Shown here piece after piece: positions 7,983-22,028 of a stretch of DNA of 22,373 nucleotides. Made by a program: the position numbers and the translations under genes. The number at the start of each line of letters is the position of its first letter. Position 1 is the stretch's first letter. Under the pieces are notes generated by a model, which saw only the letters and a program-made list of their open reading frames with translations, was not told the DNA's origin and searched no databases. The stretch comes from a virus, in IMG/VR virus record IMGVR_UViG_3300034198_007374, positions 1-22,373 of that record, one strand, 5' to 3'.

Positions 7983-9953
7983 TTAACAGCTTCCATCCAT
8001 AACATTTTCAGCCCAAAAATAGACTAATTGATCATTAGCACCAACTTGTTGTATGCATACACGCGCAATGTGTACAATATCTCCCGAGTCAGAAATACTA
8101 GAACCTATGGCACCAATTGGACGATATTTAAAATTACTAGATGGAGCCGAAATGGGTACCCATCCAGGTGGTAAATAATTTCCAGTCAATCCACGTTCAT
8201 TTAAATTTATAGCCCAAGTATTATCTTGAGTTATTCCAGATTTGATTGATGGATCGAGAGACCACTGTTCAATTTGATGCCCCTCATAAGTATTGCCGGA
8301 TCTACCGCTTGCAATTCCATATGCACTTGTTACACCAGAAGCACCTGAAGTAAAATTTAATTTATTCCATTTATATCGATAATATTTTGCACCATTTGGT
8401 CCAGTTTGACCTTGTCCGTGATACGGTCCTTGTTCTGAATAATAGGTTGAATCTGGTTCATATCTCTGTAAAACTGCAAAGAAACAATCTTCTGAATTTC
8501 CCATACAACATAATGAATACATTACAAAATTTTGCTTTTCAATTTGTCTCAATTTAGTTAAACGGTCTCCACCTGTAGTACCATCCAATGGCAAGGGACC
8601 ATCATAATAATTTAAATAATTTGAGACATAATAACGAATCTGCATTATTTTATCCAAATACGTATCTTTTCCTGCTACTATTTTTGATGTTAATGGATCT
8701 GGATAATTTGGATGTATTGGAGTCAAATCAAACATATTTTTCCACATATCGGGGCTATCTAAAAATGGCATATATCCAGTTTTACCCATAAAATTCAATG
8801 TTTGATATGCGTCATTTGTTCCATAATTGTTATTAAGAAAACTTGGATTTGATTTATTATTTGTTGGAACATTTCCATCAAAATATCCCCAACTATTTTC
8901 AACCATCAACCTATCTCCACCTTTTGGTGCAGTATTTCCTCTTCCATCTATAGTTACTATATCAATATTATATTTTTCGCCATCATCTTGAAAGTGAAAT
9001 GCCAAATTTCCTCTGGTATAAGACTCTGAATCAGCATCTTCTGCAAGAAATTCGGTCGGCAATTCATCCAGATATTTTGGTGTTTTTCTAACATAATAAT
9101 AATTTTTAGAAATCCATTGAAATGCTGGATTAGTAGCAAAAAAGTATGCTTTTCGATATATTTTTTTATCAGAAAGTTTTTGTATAACAGAATCACCATT
9201 AAAAACGGCTATATTTCTATAATCAGCATCTATTGTTTTATATGATGGATCTTGTGTAAGCCCTCTTTGAAAATATTTAAAATTTACATCTCCACCAAAA
9301 CTTGTCCAAAATAAAAAATTTGGTGATTGGCCAGTCACTCCTACAGCACCCGTAGAAAGATAATTTAACATTTCTACTGCGTTGTCGGGGATTGTTTCTT
9401 CCCGATTATTAAATGGTATTAGTGGTTTATATAAAAAATAATTGCTTGCAGAATCGCTATACCCACCAGTATTTCCAAAAATGTCCTTTTTTAATATCTT
9501 TACAAATTCATCAATAGTAAAAACTGTTGGACGCCCATATCCCTGATTAGACATCAATTCAGTTAAAGTATTTGAAGAAAAATAACGATAATATGAATTG
9601 GTAAAATGAATTACAAATATATTATCTTCAGTATCGGAAGCCGCATTACTGCTATATGATGCGCTGGTAATATCACAAATCCATTTTGAACCATTAAAGA
9701 ATTCAATGATAACATTTGTAATATTATTGTAACCGATATAACTTGCTATATCTCTAAGATCCGTAACACCAATACTTCCATTTGGAAATACATCATTAAT
9801 ATTTTCAACTGTTTCAAGTCGCTCAAATCTACACTGTGTGTTTTGTTGCAATATGTTTAAAGCATTAGATGTAGTACCATCTGATTTGCTGGTTAAATAA
9901 ATAGCCTTTATTGTAGAATACGCAGGATTAAAATTTTTACTTGTATTAGGCAT
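7983..9953 (-). CDS. Baseplate hub protein, gp27-like (large)
   Basis: The 656-aa protein is likely the central hub that joins tube and spike. Residues about 40-165 follow the N-terminal barrel of gp27-like hubs: CRFERLETVENI, SIGVTDLRDIASYIGYN, then VIIEFFNGSKWICDITSAS, an IFVIHFTNSYYRYFSS strand pair and the helix TIDEFVKILKKDIFG. Residues 240-450 include a hub-like middle with many aromatic residues. T4 gp27 is 391 aa, so there is a large extension (residues about 450-656) that I do not recognise. The place between gp53 and gp25 suits a hub. The assignment is by pattern and synteny, not a firm match. Confidence 0.6.
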   Translation of the reverse strand: MPNTSKNFNPAYSTIKAIYLTSKSDGTTSNALNILQQNTQCRFERLETVENINDVFPNGSIGVTDLRDIASYIGYNNITNVIIEFFNGSKWICDITSASYSSNAASDTEDNIFVIHFTNSYYRYFSSNTLTELMSNQGYGRPTVFTIDEFVKILKKDIFGNTGGYSDSASNYFLYKPLIPFNNREETIPDNAVEMLNYLSTGAVGVTGQSPNFLFWTSFGGDVNFKYFQRGLTQDPSYKTIDADYRNIAVFNGDSVIQKLSDKKIYRKAYFFATNPAFQWISKNYYYVRKTPKYLDELPTEFLAEDADSESYTRGNLAFHFQDDGEKYNIDIVTIDGRGNTAPKGGDRLMVENSWGYFDGNVPTNNKSNPSFLNNNYGTNDAYQTLNFMGKTGYMPFLDSPDMWKNMFDLTPIHPNYPDPLTSKIVAGKDTYLDKIMQIRYYVSNYLNYYDGPLPLDGTTGGDRLTKLRQIEKQNFVMYSLCCMGNSEDCFFAVLQRYEPDSTYYSEQGPYHGQGQTGPNGAKYYRYKWNKLNFTSGASGVTSAYGIASGRSGNTYEGHQIEQWSLDPSIKSGITQDNTWAINLNERGLTGNYLPPGWVPISAPSSNFKYRPIGAIGSSISDSGDIVHIARVCIQQVGANDQLVYFWAENVMDGSC

Positions 9954-11649: not shown

Positions 11650-11676
11650 AATATTTAGACAAATTCTCTAAATATT
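11650..11676. promoter_or_regulatory. Divergent late promoters in a perfect inverted repeat
   Basis: The 35-nt gap between the divergent ATGs of the gp48-like gene (11645, minus) and gp4 (11681, plus) holds arms AATATTTAGA (11650-11659) and TCTAAATATT (11667-11676), a perfect 10-bp inverted repeat with a 7-nt spacer. Each arm reads TCTAAATATT towards its own gene and ends 4 nt before that gene's ATG. Each therefore looks like a late promoter (TATAAATA variant) firing outwards. Confidence 0.65.
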
Positions 11677-11680
11677 GTAT

Positions 11681-12100
11681 ATGGCATATAGATCGATTTA
11701 TAATCCCAAAAATCCTAAGAAATATGCTGGTGATGTGTCAAAAATAGTCTGCAGATCATTGTGGGAGAGAAATGTTTGCAAATTTTGTGATGAAACTCCA
11801 AACATTATAAAATGGTCTTCGGAGGAAATTGCAATTCCTTATGTAAATCCATTGGATGAAAAGGTGCACAATTATTTTCCAGACTTCTTGATTCAATTTA
11901 AAAATTCTTCTGGTGTGCATAATTGGATGGTTGAAGTTAAACCTAAAAAACAAACGTATTTAAAAGAGAACGCTTCTAAAAAAGAAAAAGCCATTTGGAT
12001 AATGAATTCAGCCAAGTGGCAAGCCGCTAAAAAATACTGTGATAGCCACAACATTGTATTTAAAATTTTAACAGAAAAAGATTTATTTAACAATGCCTAA
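11681..12100 (+). CDS. gp4: Head completion nuclease gp4 (gp50)
   Basis: The 139-aa product (MAYRSIYNPKNPKKYAGDVS) is a clear homologue of T4 gp4, the head-completion protein needed to finish full heads before tail joining. It belongs to the TnsA-like PD-(D/E)XK nuclease fold. Visible residues are E29 in LWERN, D68 in FPDFL and E85/K87 in MVEVKPK, the complete catalytic set. A TTG two codons upstream keeps the frame open, but the ATG at 11681 aligns with the family start and is 6 nt past a late element. It overlaps the next gene by 8 nt. Confidence 0.93.
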   Translation: MAYRSIYNPKNPKKYAGDVSKIVCRSLWERNVCKFCDETPNIIKWSSEEIAIPYVNPLDEKVHNYFPDFLIQFKNSSGVHNWMVEVKPKKQTYLKENASKKEKAIWIMNSAKWQAAKKYCDSHNIVFKILTEKDLFNNA

Positions 12101-12653
12101 TACAAATTCCATCCTTTCAATTAAAGATTATTTTGATCGCCACAATGGTTTGCAAAGATCAAATAGATTTTCTATGACATTCGATGGGTTACCAAAAACC
12201 CTTAAACTTGACAATAAAGATTTACAGCCTTTAGCAGTAACTGTTGGATCTAGAGCATTGGATGGTATTGCTGATAATTTGGCAGGATATGGTTTAGGTA
12301 GAACGGTACCACGTTATCAAAAATTTCCACAGGGAGTGTTAGTGAGTTTTGCAATAACAAATGATCACTTTATTACAGATTTTTTTGATCAATGGTTTAA
12401 CTTAATATATTCAGGCGGAAGACAAAGAGGTTCTGTCAGTGCTCCATTCCAGTTATCGTTTTATGACGATGTCATTTATAATTGCACAATGAAGATTAAT
12501 TTTTTGGATTTAAATGGAAATACCAATAGAACATATACTTTTTTTGAAGTTTATCCAATCGAATGCATGCCGATAAATCTGACAATGTTGGAACAAAATC
12601 AATACTCTACATATCAAGTGTTGTTTATGTACAGAGATTTTACATTTAAATAA
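12093..12653 (+). CDS. Tail-tube-fold protein (gp19/gp54-like)
   Basis: The 186-aa protein has the length and pattern of T4 tube-fold proteins (gp19 is 163 aa). Visible are RSNRFSMTFDGLP near the N-terminus, the loop RTVPRYQKFPQGVLVSFAI, the helix FITDFFDQWFNLIYSGG, and the final strands FEVYPIECMPINLTMLEQN with YQVLFMYRDF. It could be the tube monomer gp19 or the tube initiator gp54. Location next to gp4 and gp26, away from gp18, slightly favours an initiator or baseplate paralogue. It overlaps gp4 by 8 nt, so it is probably translated by coupling. Confidence 0.75.
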   Translation: MPNTNSILSIKDYFDRHNGLQRSNRFSMTFDGLPKTLKLDNKDLQPLAVTVGSRALDGIADNLAGYGLGRTVPRYQKFPQGVLVSFAITNDHFITDFFDQWFNLIYSGGRQRGSVSAPFQLSFYDDVIYNCTMKINFLDLNGNTNRTYTFFEVYPIECMPINLTMLEQNQYSTYQVLFMYRDFTFK

Positions 12654-12665
12654 AAAAGGTGAGTT

Positions 12666-13328
12666 ATGGACATTCTTCAGTCTTTGGAAAATTTATTACC
12701 AAAATACGAAACTGTATTGCCGTTTTCAAATCAAAAAGTATCATTTAAACCATTTCGTGTAAAAGATGCAAAAAATATTTCTATAGTATTGCAAGAAGAT
12801 AATAAAAAATTATCTCTAAATGCTATGTTAGAACTATTAAAATCAAATACTGAAGGTTTGGATATTTTAAATTTGTGTCTTGCTGATGCTGAATTTTTAT
12901 TTCTACAGATTAGAGCAAAAAGTGTAGACGAATATCTTAATTTAATCTATAATCAAGAAAAAATTCAAGTCTTCATATACGATATTAAAACTAAAAATAA
13001 CATAATAGAAGATACAATAAAACTAAATGAAAACATCACATTGATGTTGCACACACCGACAATAAAAGATTTGTTGAAATTATCATCTTTAGATAAAGAA
13101 CAATTAATAAAATCATGTATAAACAAAATAATTGTCAAAGGTGAAATTTTTTATGTTGATCGTTTTGTAGCCGATGAAATTAAAAAGTTGTTGGATAATC
13201 TTCCTTTAAATATAGTTCCAAAACTAGAACATTTTTTAACAAAATTGCCTGAATTATACATTACTTTAGATACCAAAGACGGTGAAAAGGAGGTCAGCGG
13301 CATCTTAAGTTTTTTTATCTATCGGTAA
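12666..13328 (+). CDS. gp26: Baseplate hub assembly chaperone gp26-like
   Basis: The 220-aa product resembles the T4 gp26 baseplate family. After a short helix it has LPFSNQKVSFKPFRVKDAKN, then LDILNLCLADAEFLFLQIRA and KSVDEYLNLIY, the usual order of this family, and the C-terminal half continues with TIKDLLKLSSLDKEQL. It is an assembly factor rather than a certain virion part. An AAGGTGAG ribosome site is 4 nt before the ATG. The end carries AGGAGG followed by seven T's, a likely -1 frameshift site that would extend the protein to about 284 aa. Confidence 0.82.
   Translation: MDILQSLENLLPKYETVLPFSNQKVSFKPFRVKDAKNISIVLQEDNKKLSLNAMLELLKSNTEGLDILNLCLADAEFLFLQIRAKSVDEYLNLIYNQEKIQVFIYDIKTKNNIIEDTIKLNENITLMLHTPTIKDLLKLSSLDKEQLIKSCINKIIVKGEIFYVDRFVADEIKKLLDNLPLNIVPKLEHFLTKLPELYITLDTKDGEKEVSGILSFFIYR
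13288..13316 (+). promoter_or_regulatory. Programmed -1 frameshift site in gp26
   Basis: A strong internal Shine-Dalgarno AGGAGGT (13288-13294) precedes the slippery heptamer T TTT TTT (13310-13316), which in the gp26 frame is read as the end of AGT, then TTT TTT. Spacing between them is 15 nt, in the range in which an upstream SD promotes -1 slippage (the dnaX case is the model). The gp26 stop TAA follows at 13326. The -1 frame is then open to 13519. Confidence 0.75.
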
Positions 13329-13519
13329 AGTTTTTTGATTTAAAAGATTATTTTACAACAAATTTTACCTTAATAAATAATTTTGGATGGAACTTATTCG
13401 ACATAGATAGCATGATTTGGTGGGAAAGAGAAATCTATGTCAAACTCATCATTGAGTATCAAGAACAAAAGAAACATGAAGAAATGGCAAAATCATATAA
13501 TCTTAGTGGAGGAATGTAA
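13316..13519 (+). CDS. gp51-like extension, reached by -1 frameshift from gp26
   Basis: This is a 67-codon open segment in the -1 frame of gp26, ending in a TAA at 13519. It contains FGWNLFDIDSMIWWEREIYV followed by KLIIEYQEQKKHEEM, matching in style the tail-assembly-chaperone 'T' partner (in T4 gp51 lies directly after gp26, and lambda T lies after G). The first internal ATG (13412) lacks a ribosome site and falls within the WWER motif region, so independent translation is unlikely. Slippage at the T7 run gives a fusion of about 284 aa. The frame lacks stops back to 13283, upstream of the slip site. Confidence 0.68.
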   Translation, partial: YLSVKFFDLKDYFTTNFTLINNFGWNLFDIDSMIWWEREIYVKLIIEYQEQKKHEEMAKSYNLSGGM

Positions 13520-13521
13520 CC

Positions 13522-13944
13522 ATGAATGATCAAGACATTCAAATAGATGTCGATGCAGAAAAACAAGTATTTGCACCGGCATTAACTCCATCATCAATAA
13601 AAATGGATACAGAATCTGTTGCACAGATGGACGTACCCCTACCTCCCTCGATTCCATATACACCAACACAGGTTGATATAAAATCTGCACCGCAGGCTGA
13701 AGTTTCTAAGACAGCATTAAATATGTCTTTAAAATTTAATGCAGAAGATCACTATAATGAATTAAGAGAGACTGTAGATTCATTGCAGTCACAGATTAAA
13801 AACAATTCAAATGAAATGCGCACTCAGTGGATTCCCGATCCAAAACCTGAAAATAAATTTGAAGAAAAACCAACAGTAGATCCTACCAATTTAATTTTTT
13901 TACAACGTAGAGAACAATTTAGTAAATTTCCCCACTGGGCATAA
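13522..13944 (+). CDS. Unidentified 140-aa protein after gp26/gp51
   Basis: The product has a GGAGG ribosome site 9 nt before its ATG, 2 nt after the gp51-like stop. Residues 1-60 are Pro/Asp/Val-rich and probably disordered (APALTPSSIKMD, then PLPPSIPYTPTQVD). Residues about 70-95 form a likely coiled coil (EDHYNELRETVDSLQSQIKN), and the tail ends FSKFPHWA. I do not recognise it. Position suggests an assembly factor or small structural protein of the tail. In lambda the gene after G/GT is the tape measure, but this protein is far too small for that. Confidence 0.75.
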   Translation: MNDQDIQIDVDAEKQVFAPALTPSSIKMDTESVAQMDVPLPPSIPYTPTQVDIKSAPQAEVSKTALNMSLKFNAEDHYNELRETVDSLQSQIKNNSNEMRTQWIPDPKPENKFEEKPTVDPTNLIFLQRREQFSKFPHWA

Positions 13945-13970
13945 AAAAAGCCCCCTTTCGGGGGCTTTTT
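13945..13970. terminator. Bidirectional rho-independent terminator
   Basis: The sequence reads A5-GCCCCC-TTTC-GGGGGC-T5, a 6-bp GC stem with a 4-nt loop flanked by A and T runs, so it can act on both strands. It lies in the 25 nt between the convergent stops of the 140-aa gene and gp32, touching the gp32 stop. Confidence 0.92.
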
Positions 13971-18200: not shown

Positions 18201-21200
18201 TCAATATTCATATATTGCTGGATCAATATCGGTATCTATTATATGTGGTAATTTAATTCTACCACTTTTAGAAATCTTACACCAAAATGGATTTGATGTA
18301 CAAGTACCATCATTGCCAACCTTATTCAGGAATCCAGCCATTAATGCACCTGGACATAATATTTCTCCTACAGAAGTTGGAGTTTGACATATGCACCATG
18401 CATATGGATTTGAACCCGGATCTGGCACTCCACACGAACTTTGACATTCTGCAATTGTTTGAACGGTTTTTCCCATTGGTGTATCAGGTGTTAATACATG
18501 AAGAGGTGCTGGTACATTTATTATATTTTCTGTATAATACAAATTTCCATTTGGATCTTCTTGTGGAGAATAAAAATGTGTATTTAAATTTTCTTGATAT
18601 TTTTGTACTTTTCCACCAAATCTTGCATAGCAATAATTGTTTCCAGAGCACTGGCAAATAGTACAACTTACATTTTCGACTGTGTGTTGCTTTCCCCAAC
18701 CATAACTGGATGTTGAACATACAACAGCAAGGGGATGATATTCAAAACCATTATAACCACAATTAAAATCACATGAACCTACTCCCAAAACTGGACACGA
18801 TTTCGCACCGCATTCACATATGTCGCATGGATTTGTAATAAAATTATTTTTTGGTTCTGGATTTGTCGCTCCAAATTCTCTAAATGCCTCTGGTGATTCT
18901 GGACATTTAACAAAACAAGCATCTCCACATTCATTACATTTTTTAGATGGTCCAAACAAAATATTTGACCACTCTTGTGAGGTTATTTTATCGTTTGGTG
19001 ATTTTCCAATACATTGGCAGCAAGTAATACCAAATAAATCTTTGCATAATTTATTATCTATTCCCGTAGTATTTGGATCGAATAAAAAATTTACGGCTGG
19101 AGCACAACTTGCTGAACATCGTGCTCCACAACAAAATTGACCTTTACATATACTATTACTTGGAATCGAACAATCTTCGACACATCTAACAGAAGATGGA
19201 GCTCCACTGGGATCCCAACATATTCCTTGATAACCACATTCAACGTTGTTTGGATTAGTTGGATCACTATCACCACCAACACTATAACCATTATCGCTGC
19301 ATTTTGTTGATTCTAAATCCTGATTGAGATTAATTCCGCTGCATAAAGTTAAAATACCATTATCAAAATTTGATTCCTTAGGAGAATATTTAATTAATAC
19401 ATTTGGTGCATACCACATATTTTCTGGATGGAAAGTAATATCTGGACCATATCCGTATATATTAAATGGACTACAACCCGTTGAATCACCGCTGCAATAT
19501 TCGCAGTCATCAATATTTAAACACAAGCTTCCCCATTTAACTAAATTCCATGTTCCGGGAATGGCTCTAAAAAATAATTGTCTATTCACATAACCAGGAG
19601 CATTTTTACTATACTGTTTATCAGTATTATAGTATTTTGAATACTGTAAATCTTGAATTTTATATTCTGAAGGAAATCCCGATCCAACACTAGGATCTAT
19701 TTCTCCAGTTATACAATTATAAAATCCAGTTTCGTGTTCTTTAAAAATTTTATCTGGATTTACTGTATTTTCCTTATAGAGAATAAGTCCACCATATGGA
19801 ACTGTTTTTCCATCTCCATACCAACCATATTGCCCTTGACCACTTGGATCTCCCCACTGCAAGTAGTTTGGTGGTATTACTTTTCTAATTGGAGCAAATT
19901 GTGCCAATCCATCAATACCGCTCTCCGGGAACATTTCTGCTGGAGTACACATTCTTCCATAAGCATCATAATATTTTTGTTTTAATGAAATAAAATCACT
20001 GGGTGGCACTGGAACCGGATATCCCGGTTCCCATGGAAGATAATATGCACCACTTGGACCGTTCGCCATTCCAGTTTCAATTATCTGTTTAATCTCATTG
20101 TAGATATTTTCTCTGTGATCTCTTGTACCGATAATTCCGGCTTCGCACATGGCTCCCAAAATATCTCGAACAATTTGAACGTATTTGTGTCCATCACTCG
20201 AACAACCGGGTGGAAACATTCCTTTTCCACGACCATCTGGTAATCCATTATCTGAAATAGAATTGCTAAACATACTAAAGTATGATAGAAATTTTTCAAC
20301 TGTCATCGGAATAGATCCTTGTGATTGATCTGGATCTGCAAATGCCTCAAAAATTCCCAAACGTTTTGCATATTCTAAATCAAACTGGAATAAAGGAGTT
20401 CCAGAACTTTTATAAGTAAAAATTTTAGGTGTAGTTCTTGTAAGCCAGTATCCCCATCTATCTTTTGGATTTGCGGATGATCCATTAGTTCCAGTTCCTC
20501 CAAATCCTGTTTGTGGTGGAATTGTAGGTCCAGCAGCATTTACGTCGTCTAAATTAGTACCCATATAATGGAAGTAATGTTCTAAATGAACAGTTCCAAC
20601 AAATTGGCTAAAGAATGTGCTCTCGCCAAGCATTGGTGTGTATTGTTCCATTTTAAATGTGTAATTTGAAGTATCTGGAGTTTGGGCTATACCAAAATTT
20701 TCTCTATGCAATTGTTCATAATCATATAAACCATAATCACCCAATCCAGTAGTTATGTAACTTACACCCAAATCATATGTTTTTACAGGTGAACTAACAT
20801 CACCACCACCGGCACAGAACACATCAAAAGCCCAAGGATAACTTGTCAGCATCAATCGACGCATATATGGACTCATAGCACAATAATTACAATAATTTTG
20901 TCTAAATCCTCCACTGGATGGTTTATATAATGTATCAATTAAGTCAAAATTTACAAAAAAAGCAGTACCACCCAATTTAGGTACATTTACACCCATATTA
21001 AAAGTATTATCAGAACCCAATATAGTTGATGTTTTTTGTGAATTTGTACGACCTTGTAGTGGCGAATAAAAAACATCTCCCTGTGCTGCTATACGTGTTT
21101 CTATAATTCGTGTAGTTAACATAGGAGTATGATTTAATACCGTAGTCGCATATTGATCCATCCACTCGCAGTCACTGGCACTTTCATTACCATTAGCCAC

Positions 21201-22028
21201 TTTATTCCAACAACTTACAGTAGGATCTACCAAACGAACTGGCGATGTATTTTTTGGATCTTCATAACAAGTACAACACGGAGTCATATCTTTGATGTTA
21301 TGAGAAGGATACAAAAATGATGTGTATTGAGTTAGCCAACCACCTATTGGAAGCCATGCTCTTCCCGTCATAGCCTCATCATTAGGTCCACCCGGAACCC
21401 TTATTGGAGAGGTTATGACATCTCCCCATATATTAAAATCATTCTCATGTGCTTCAGCAACCCAAGGTAATATTTGTGTACAACTGTCACATTTATTTGG
21501 TCTAGTCTCTATATTGTCAGTACTATAATCAGTTCCATAAATTTTTTGATAATAACAGTTTGAAAGATGTGAAACGCTAAAATCAAATCTAGGATCAAGT
21601 AGTGAAAATGCAGAACATTGTGGTATATTGGGGTCACCGTTAACAGCATATTTTGGTGGATACCAAGTCCAAGCACACCCAATATTTTTATATTTTTGTC
21701 TAACGGTTCGTGTTCTGGTTGGATATAGTTTTGTTTTTCCATAACAACATTTACAACCATCATTGGTAATTTTTTCTACTTCATTACCACTTTTGTAAAC
21801 GGCATCAGAACCAACACGTTGAAATAAAATGATTTCATCATCTGGATGTATTGGGTATACATTTACATTTTTAACTGTTTTATAACCACCAGTATCTGGA
21901 TCTGTTATCAAATTTCCATTAGAATCAAGAGCATATTCTCTATCAACTAATAGGTCACCGAGCATTGCGACATTATTTGTATAATTATACGGAGCGCAGC
22001 ATTTACAACAACAAGCTTTTTTAGGCAT
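18201..22028 (-). CDS. Giant cysteine-rich late protein (1275 aa)
   Basis: I do not recognise this protein. By my count it has about 65 cysteines. It opens with CCCKCC (residues 6-11) and has pairs or trios such as DGCKCC (about 92), CDSC, CCTC and CNYC. Residues about 840-1140 hold around 33 cysteines in spaced patterns like small disulfide or metal-knot repeats (CNECGDACFVKC, CDICECGAKSC, CTICQCSGNNYC). The central part (about 330-830) is aromatic- and Gly-rich without cysteine repeats. No signal peptide or membrane segment is evident, and it starts from a perfect late promoter, so a virion or host-contact role is likely. A very large phage-encoded metal-binding protein is an alternative. 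The ribosome site is TGAGAA. Confidence 0.8.
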   Translation of the reverse strand: MPKKACCCKCCAPYNYTNNVAMLGDLLVDREYALDSNGNLITDPDTGGYKTVKNVNVYPIHPDDEIILFQRVGSDAVYKSGNEVEKITNDGCKCCYGKTKLYPTRTRTVRQKYKNIGCAWTWYPPKYAVNGDPNIPQCSAFSLLDPRFDFSVSHLSNCYYQKIYGTDYSTDNIETRPNKCDSCTQILPWVAEAHENDFNIWGDVITSPIRVPGGPNDEAMTGRAWLPIGGWLTQYTSFLYPSHNIKDMTPCCTCYEDPKNTSPVRLVDPTVSCWNKVANGNESASDCEWMDQYATTVLNHTPMLTTRIIETRIAAQGDVFYSPLQGRTNSQKTSTILGSDNTFNMGVNVPKLGGTAFFVNFDLIDTLYKPSSGGFRQNYCNYCAMSPYMRRLMLTSYPWAFDVFCAGGGDVSSPVKTYDLGVSYITTGLGDYGLYDYEQLHRENFGIAQTPDTSNYTFKMEQYTPMLGESTFFSQFVGTVHLEHYFHYMGTNLDDVNAAGPTIPPQTGFGGTGTNGSSANPKDRWGYWLTRTTPKIFTYKSSGTPLFQFDLEYAKRLGIFEAFADPDQSQGSIPMTVEKFLSYFSMFSNSISDNGLPDGRGKGMFPPGCSSDGHKYVQIVRDILGAMCEAGIIGTRDHRENIYNEIKQIIETGMANGPSGAYYLPWEPGYPVPVPPSDFISLKQKYYDAYGRMCTPAEMFPESGIDGLAQFAPIRKVIPPNYLQWGDPSGQGQYGWYGDGKTVPYGGLILYKENTVNPDKIFKEHETGFYNCITGEIDPSVGSGFPSEYKIQDLQYSKYYNTDKQYSKNAPGYVNRQLFFRAIPGTWNLVKWGSLCLNIDDCEYCSGDSTGCSPFNIYGYGPDITFHPENMWYAPNVLIKYSPKESNFDNGILTLCSGINLNQDLESTKCSDNGYSVGGDSDPTNPNNVECGYQGICWDPSGAPSSVRCVEDCSIPSNSICKGQFCCGARCSASCAPAVNFLFDPNTTGIDNKLCKDLFGITCCQCIGKSPNDKITSQEWSNILFGPSKKCNECGDACFVKCPESPEAFREFGATNPEPKNNFITNPCDICECGAKSCPVLGVGSCDFNCGYNGFEYHPLAVVCSTSSYGWGKQHTVENVSCTICQCSGNNYCYARFGGKVQKYQENLNTHFYSPQEDPNGNLYYTENIINVPAPLHVLTPDTPMGKTVQTIAECQSSCGVPDPGSNPYAWCICQTPTSVGEILCPGALMAGFLNKVGNDGTCTSNPFWCKISKSGRIKLPHIIDTDIDPAIYEY

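Follow-up and report, generated by a model that had tools for sequence, protein, structure and literature searches.

A single gene in an environmental T4-like phage very probably specifies two forms of a tail assembly chaperone, in the manner of phage lambda G/GT, through programmed -1 ribosomal frameshifting. This reading is drawn from comparative sequence analysis of a gp26-like gene within the window, by which is meant the whole 22,373-nucleotide stretch of DNA that was analysed (IMG/VR virus record IMGVR_UViG_3300034198_007374). In the proposed process, most ribosomes would halt at the 0-frame stop (13326-13328) and release a 220-residue short form of the T4 gp26 type, while a minority, carrying two phenylalanine tRNAs on T TTT TTT, would slip back by one base. 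That slippage takes place, and how often, is inferred. Pairing of AAGGAGGU with the anti-Shine-Dalgarno (anti-SD) sequence of the translating ribosome would aid it, as would a 10-bp mRNA stem situated 7 nt downstream. Ribosomes that slip would continue in the -1 frame to produce a 284-residue long form ending in a gp51-type domain, and this long form would connect the tape measure and tail tube proteins.

The chaperone gene, its slip site and the -1 extension

The 0-frame protein matches PF12322 (T4_baseplate) over residues 12-217 (E=5.8e-28, with 98.5 bits against a curated cut-off of 24.5) and also PHROG_150 (E=6.6e-29), both in profile searches. When the short form was modelled with AlphaFold (pLDDT 88), the structure matched BFVD entries of the gp26 type, and its first ~90 residues align with the HK97 tail assembly chaperone 2ob9 at a middling Z of 6.7 and with 3fgx at a Z of 8.0, the next entry scoring 3.0. 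A Foldseek search of the model against the PDB returned no significant match; 2ob9 had the highest probability, with an E-value of 1.3. The modelled likeness to the HK97 fold is supportive but of middling strength. Modelled alone, the extension gave low confidence (pLDDT 69). Chaperone genes of the G/GT type lie between those for tail tube and tape measure; here the tail tube gene is the direct upstream neighbour, and profile searches with Pfam and PHROGs recognised no tape measure gene in the window or beside the chaperone gene. The features of the locus are collected in Table 1.

Table 1. Features of the chaperone locus, in window coordinates
Feature	Position	Strand	Evidence
Tail tube gene (gp19-like), directly upstream neighbour	12093..12653	+	PHROG_45, E=3.6e-13
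gp26-like 0-frame gene, tail assembly chaperone short form, 220 aa	12666..13328	+	PF12322, PHROG_150
AAGGAGGT, proposed 5' stimulator, 15 nt before the slip site	13287..13294	+	Only copy in the window; codon choice
Slippery heptamer T TTT TTT	13310..13316	+	In register in 80/80 window-clade loci among the matches listed
-1-frame extension FFYLSVKFF..., gp51-type C-terminal domain	13310..13519	+	PHROG_634, codon periodicity
Spacer of 7 nt, slip site to stem	13317..13323	+	
5' arm of stem, GGTAAAGTTT, includes the 0-frame stop	13324..13333	+	GGTAAAG invariant in 37/37; fold z -2.98
Stop codon TAA of the 0 frame, terminates the short form	13326..13328	+	Same distance in 80/80 window-clade loci among the matches listed
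3' arm of stem, AAATTTTACC	13360..13369	+	98.1% standard pairs; AAC/ACC codon enrichment

The 0-frame codons at the slip site read AGT TTT TTT ATC TAT CGG TAA, which places T TTT TTT exactly in the slippery register. A preliminary description of this DNA had pointed to an SD-like sequence followed 15 nt later by this heptamer, set in the gp26 frame, and to an open -1 segment of 67 codons past the slip with the motif MIWWEREIYVKLIIEY; both observations are borne out, the -1 frame being open from the slip site to the TAA at 13517-13519. The product predicted after a -1 slip on the heptamer has the junction ...GILSFFYLSVK... and a -1 segment that matches PHROG_634, the family of the T4 gp51 C-terminus (profile search, E=3.1e-14). 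The segment can be aligned to the C-terminus of T4 gp51, and the conserved domain begins at the FF of the slip site.

From the window alone the arrangement of SD and T run would be weak. The window is AT-rich and holds 19 T7 runs where 33 are expected, so that a T7 by itself is ordinary, and the pattern GGAGG-N6-18-T6, found once in the window, at the slip site, has at least one copy in 19% of shuffles. It is conservation that decides.

Codon choice at the SD-like element and the stem

The octamer AAGGAGGT is complementary to the anti-SD core of 16S rRNA. In 37 non-redundant loci, the glutamate codon of this element is GAG in all 37, against 0-24% at ten other conserved glutamate columns, and the lysine codon that precedes it is AAG in 97%, against at most 38% at the other conserved lysine columns of gp26. 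Codons in the spacer between the SD and the slip site are mostly unconstrained. GGAGGT occurs in 76 of the 80 window-clade loci among the matches listed, and the full octamer is absent from a few relatives. Read from these alignments, codon choice shows selection at the RNA level on the SD-like octamer. Comparative evidence strongly supports the earlier suggestion of a -1 shift into a gp51-type domain with an SD-like stimulator, and the octamer would act by promoting the slip.

Of the frameshift signal as first described, the heptamer and the SD stand, and a conserved downstream stem-loop that had been missed is to be added. Right after the slip site, the codons CGG, TCG, GTA and AAG are likewise fixed in the 37 non-redundant loci, and folding suggests that this is because GGTAAAGTTT pairs with AAATTTTACC in a predicted 10-bp stem that starts 7 nt past the heptamer. 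Within the 3' arm, AAC is used at Asn18 in 86% of sequences (19-42% at other asparagine columns) and ACC at Thr20 in 89% (5-15% at other threonine columns). Standard pairs make up 98.1% of the stem pair cells in the 37 sequences and at most 68% when the pairing is slid. No double compensatory changes in the stem were found among the 37 sequences, because the 5' arm never varies; with that arm invariant, support for the stem therefore comes from codon choice and energy, not from covariation. Codon choice, as aligned here, indicates selection on both arms. As to energy, the mean folding z just after the slip site, taken over 27 non-redundant members of the clade, is -3.45, where other folding windows of the locus give -0.1 to -0.8; the stem region of the window's own sequence gives z -2.98 on dinucleotide shuffles and only -1.36 on synonymous shuffles. 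A small hairpin between T bases of the slip run and GGTAAA was rejected as an alternative: such a hairpin would overlap the slip site, and the conservation is better explained by the downstream partner CTTTACC, itself codon-constrained.

Conservation in relatives and the rival explanations

All sets of relatives consist of top-scoring or listed matches, and are to be read as samples and not as exhaustive collections. Window-clade loci found through the -1 segment carry T7 in register at the same distance from the 0-frame stop in 80 of 80 among the matches listed, and none of these 80 listed loci has a start codon shortly upstream of the -1 domain. The slip-site peptide was among the patterns of that first search, which was repeated with gp26 N-terminal patterns only; the second set again has T TTT TTT in register in 80/80 and the same stop distance in 80/80 of the matches listed, the two sets sharing many contigs. 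GGAGGT is present in 76 of the 80 loci listed in this second set. A single-protein search with a distant member of the clade reached only near-identical loci.

More distant T4-like loci, retrieved with peptides from a part of gp26 far ahead of the slip, have T TTT TTN in register in 80 of the 80 listed, the last position being C in 41, T in 32, A in 6 and G in 1. In all 80 listed, the 0-frame stop lies 2-5 codons past the slip and a gp51-type -1 extension follows, one of these being cut by the contig end. Kyanoviridae-type loci, found with extension peptides and partly overlapping as contigs, have T TTT TTC in 80/80 listed; a purine-rich GAGGG, GGAGG or GAAGG lies 9-10 nt before the heptamer in these 80 listed loci, a match for much of which conserved Glu-Gly residues may account. 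The same architecture is present in annotated genomes from several phage families, namely those of S-SSM5, ACG-2014j, P-TIM68, S-PM2, C48C1 and S-CRM01, and those of vibriophage R10Z, pf16, Astolliot, ORM_20 and Pseudoalteromonas XG4; the heptamer of S-PM2, a culturable relative, reads T TTT TTC. Other lineages, too, have an excess of structure right after the slip site, where the mean z lies between -1.3 and -1.8 and other regions give -0.6 to +0.6, and the stems differ. Strong predicted stems of different shape follow the slip sites of S-PM2, pf16 and Astolliot (z about -4.5 to -4.8).

These comparisons bear on the other ways in which a long form, or the appearance of one, might arise. RNA polymerase itself might slip on the run of seven T, so that mRNAs of altered length would give the long form. 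Seven T is short for transcriptional slippage, however, and in many of the distant relatives the run is of just six, with C, A or G as the next base. Slippage in transcription, moreover, needs no codon register, SD octamer or stem, whereas codon choice indicates selection on the SD and the stem, and such an origin for the long form is very unlikely.

Still less probable is a reading of the downstream segment as an independent gp51 gene that has a start codon of its own. Annotators do call a short gp51 in many cyanophages, and an ATG (at MIWWER) lies 102 nt into the segment, but the open -1 stretch of the window has no ATG, GTG or TTG ahead of it, and it is missing from some relatives; the segment has no usable start for a separate gp51, in keeping with the earlier statement that it lacks a start codon with a ribosome site. 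Sequence diversity peaks at third codon positions of the 0 frame up to the slip site and, beyond it, at those of the -1 frame, and this -1-frame periodicity also covers the stretch upstream of the first ATG. The conserved domain, as noted above, begins at the slip-site FF, and T4 gp51 itself has a full gp26-like N-terminus. Lastly, error in sequencing or assembly, to which homopolymers are prone, or decay of the gene, has a negligible probability: the same T7 and stop distance recur in 80/80 listed related loci, and variation in the length of the T run, which would have signalled such error, is seen in none of the 80 listed relatives. This includes one contig that matches at 100% identity, although that contig may be an almost identical copy of the genome to which the window belongs.

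T4 gp26 and gp51, known systems and neighbouring genes

Genes 26 and 51 of T4 had been described as adjacent and separate; they are adjacent, to which it should be added that they lie on opposite strands. Homology of the locus to both T4 proteins is directly observed. T4 gp26 and gp51 both match PF12322 over essentially the full length of that profile (E=9e-64 and 4e-52, respectively), gp51 continuing beyond it into PHROG_634. Nearly all of T4 gp51 aligns with the predicted fusion of the window, and T4 gp26 terminates only a few residues away from the point of the shift. The initial reading of gp26 fused to gp51 is right in that the -1 shift would lead into a gp51-type C-terminal domain, but because T4 gp51 comprises a full-length gp26 paralogue plus that domain, the products are better put as short and long forms of one chaperone. 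Judged by homology, T4 gp26 and gp51 are paralogues that match the short and long forms, T4 using two genes instead. Krischvirus SFHK24 has a divergent gene pair as in T4; unlike that divergent pair, Klebsiella phage RCIP0002 has a long and a short PF12322 gene in tandem on one strand. In 1,334 phage records, a match extends over 80% or more of T4 gp51. The gene pairs of T4, SFHK24 and RCIP0002, taken with the frameshifting loci, thus make a clear case of a short/long protein pair that phages keep by either route, recoding or two genes.

It is rather likely that frameshifting on T TTT TTN is ancestral and near-universal in T4-like phages, with lineage-specific stimulators, and that T4 and its closer relatives substituted a gene duplication (gp26 for the short form and gp51 for the long); the direction, from frameshift to two genes, is taken from distribution and not from a tree. 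If true, this would explain why cyanophage gp51 seems to lack its first ~200 residues, and so offers an explanation for the observation of Sullivan et al. (2010; PMC3037559) that gp51 of cyanophages and marine vibriophage is without ~200 N-terminal residues. The short gp51 genes annotated in cyanophages are probably mis-calls for the terminal, -1-frame part of a long form made by frameshifting, and in phages with the frameshift architecture at large, an annotated short gp51 probably represents the end of the long form and no separate gene.

The likeness of the window locus to phage lambda G/GT is one of gene architecture: in lambda a single gene yields short and long forms through a -1 slip close to its 3' end, as is predicted for the window. 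The slip sequence of lambda G/GT differs from that of the window, which has in addition an SD and a stem. The bacterial dnaX-type -1 cassette comprises an SD-like element upstream, a slip heptamer and a stem-loop a few nucleotides downstream, and the window has the same three parts with a different gene and heptamer. Its predicted 10-bp stem, at 7 nt, lies within the 5-9 nt downstream at which a dnaX-type structure is placed, and its 15-nt SD spacing is longer than that of dnaX. For lambda, G/GT frameshifting, the 30:1 ratio and a model in which tape measure and tube are linked are established (PMC5009743).

T4-like chaperones such as T4 gp26/gp51 share with the window locus the protein family (PF12322/PHROG_150 plus PHROG_634) and the existence of short and long forms. 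An extension of the G/GT strategy to T4-type phages, as suggested in the preliminary description, had already been covered by Vladimirov, Gautam and Davidson (2022, Virology 566:9-15), to whom passages in PMC10885494 and PMC12846349 credit the identification of T4-like chaperone genes. Passages in those two papers also report poly-T slippery signals in T4-like phages, placed in the short-form genes (PMC12846349), and separate short and long chaperone genes in some of these phages (PMC10885494). The chaperone of Vandenendeviridae and Andersonviridae, which are different phage families, has a conserved poly-T (GTTTTT) -1 frameshift deduced comparatively, and the passages of PMC12846349 that treat it describe no SD or stem. 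The window locus is thus a clear new example of a device familiar from other tailed phages and not a new kind of system, and its novelty is limited. New here are the complete cassette of SD, slip site and stem, its consistency across the sampled loci and the corrected view of gp51 annotation. Whereas T4 has two paralogous genes on opposite strands, the window has one gene with the full SD, T7 and stem cassette, a well-defined three-part frameshift signal in an environmental T4-like lineage.

Several observations concern the surroundings of the gene. A gp4-like head-completion gene (PHROG_218) occupies 11675-12100; its longest ORF starts with TTG, with an in-frame ATG two codons on. Directly 3' of the -1 frame is an ORF of 140 residues without an assigned function (13522-13944), and a GGAGG just 5' of its start sits within the end of the long form, which suggests translational coupling. 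A GC-rich inverted repeat with A and T runs on its flanks (13944-13970) looks like a bidirectional terminator, and separates a convergent gene of unassigned function from a gp32-like gene. On the minus strand, a cysteine-rich ORF of 1275 residues (18201-22028) and an ORF of 656 residues amid baseplate genes (7983-9953) are both without a Pfam or PHROGs match.
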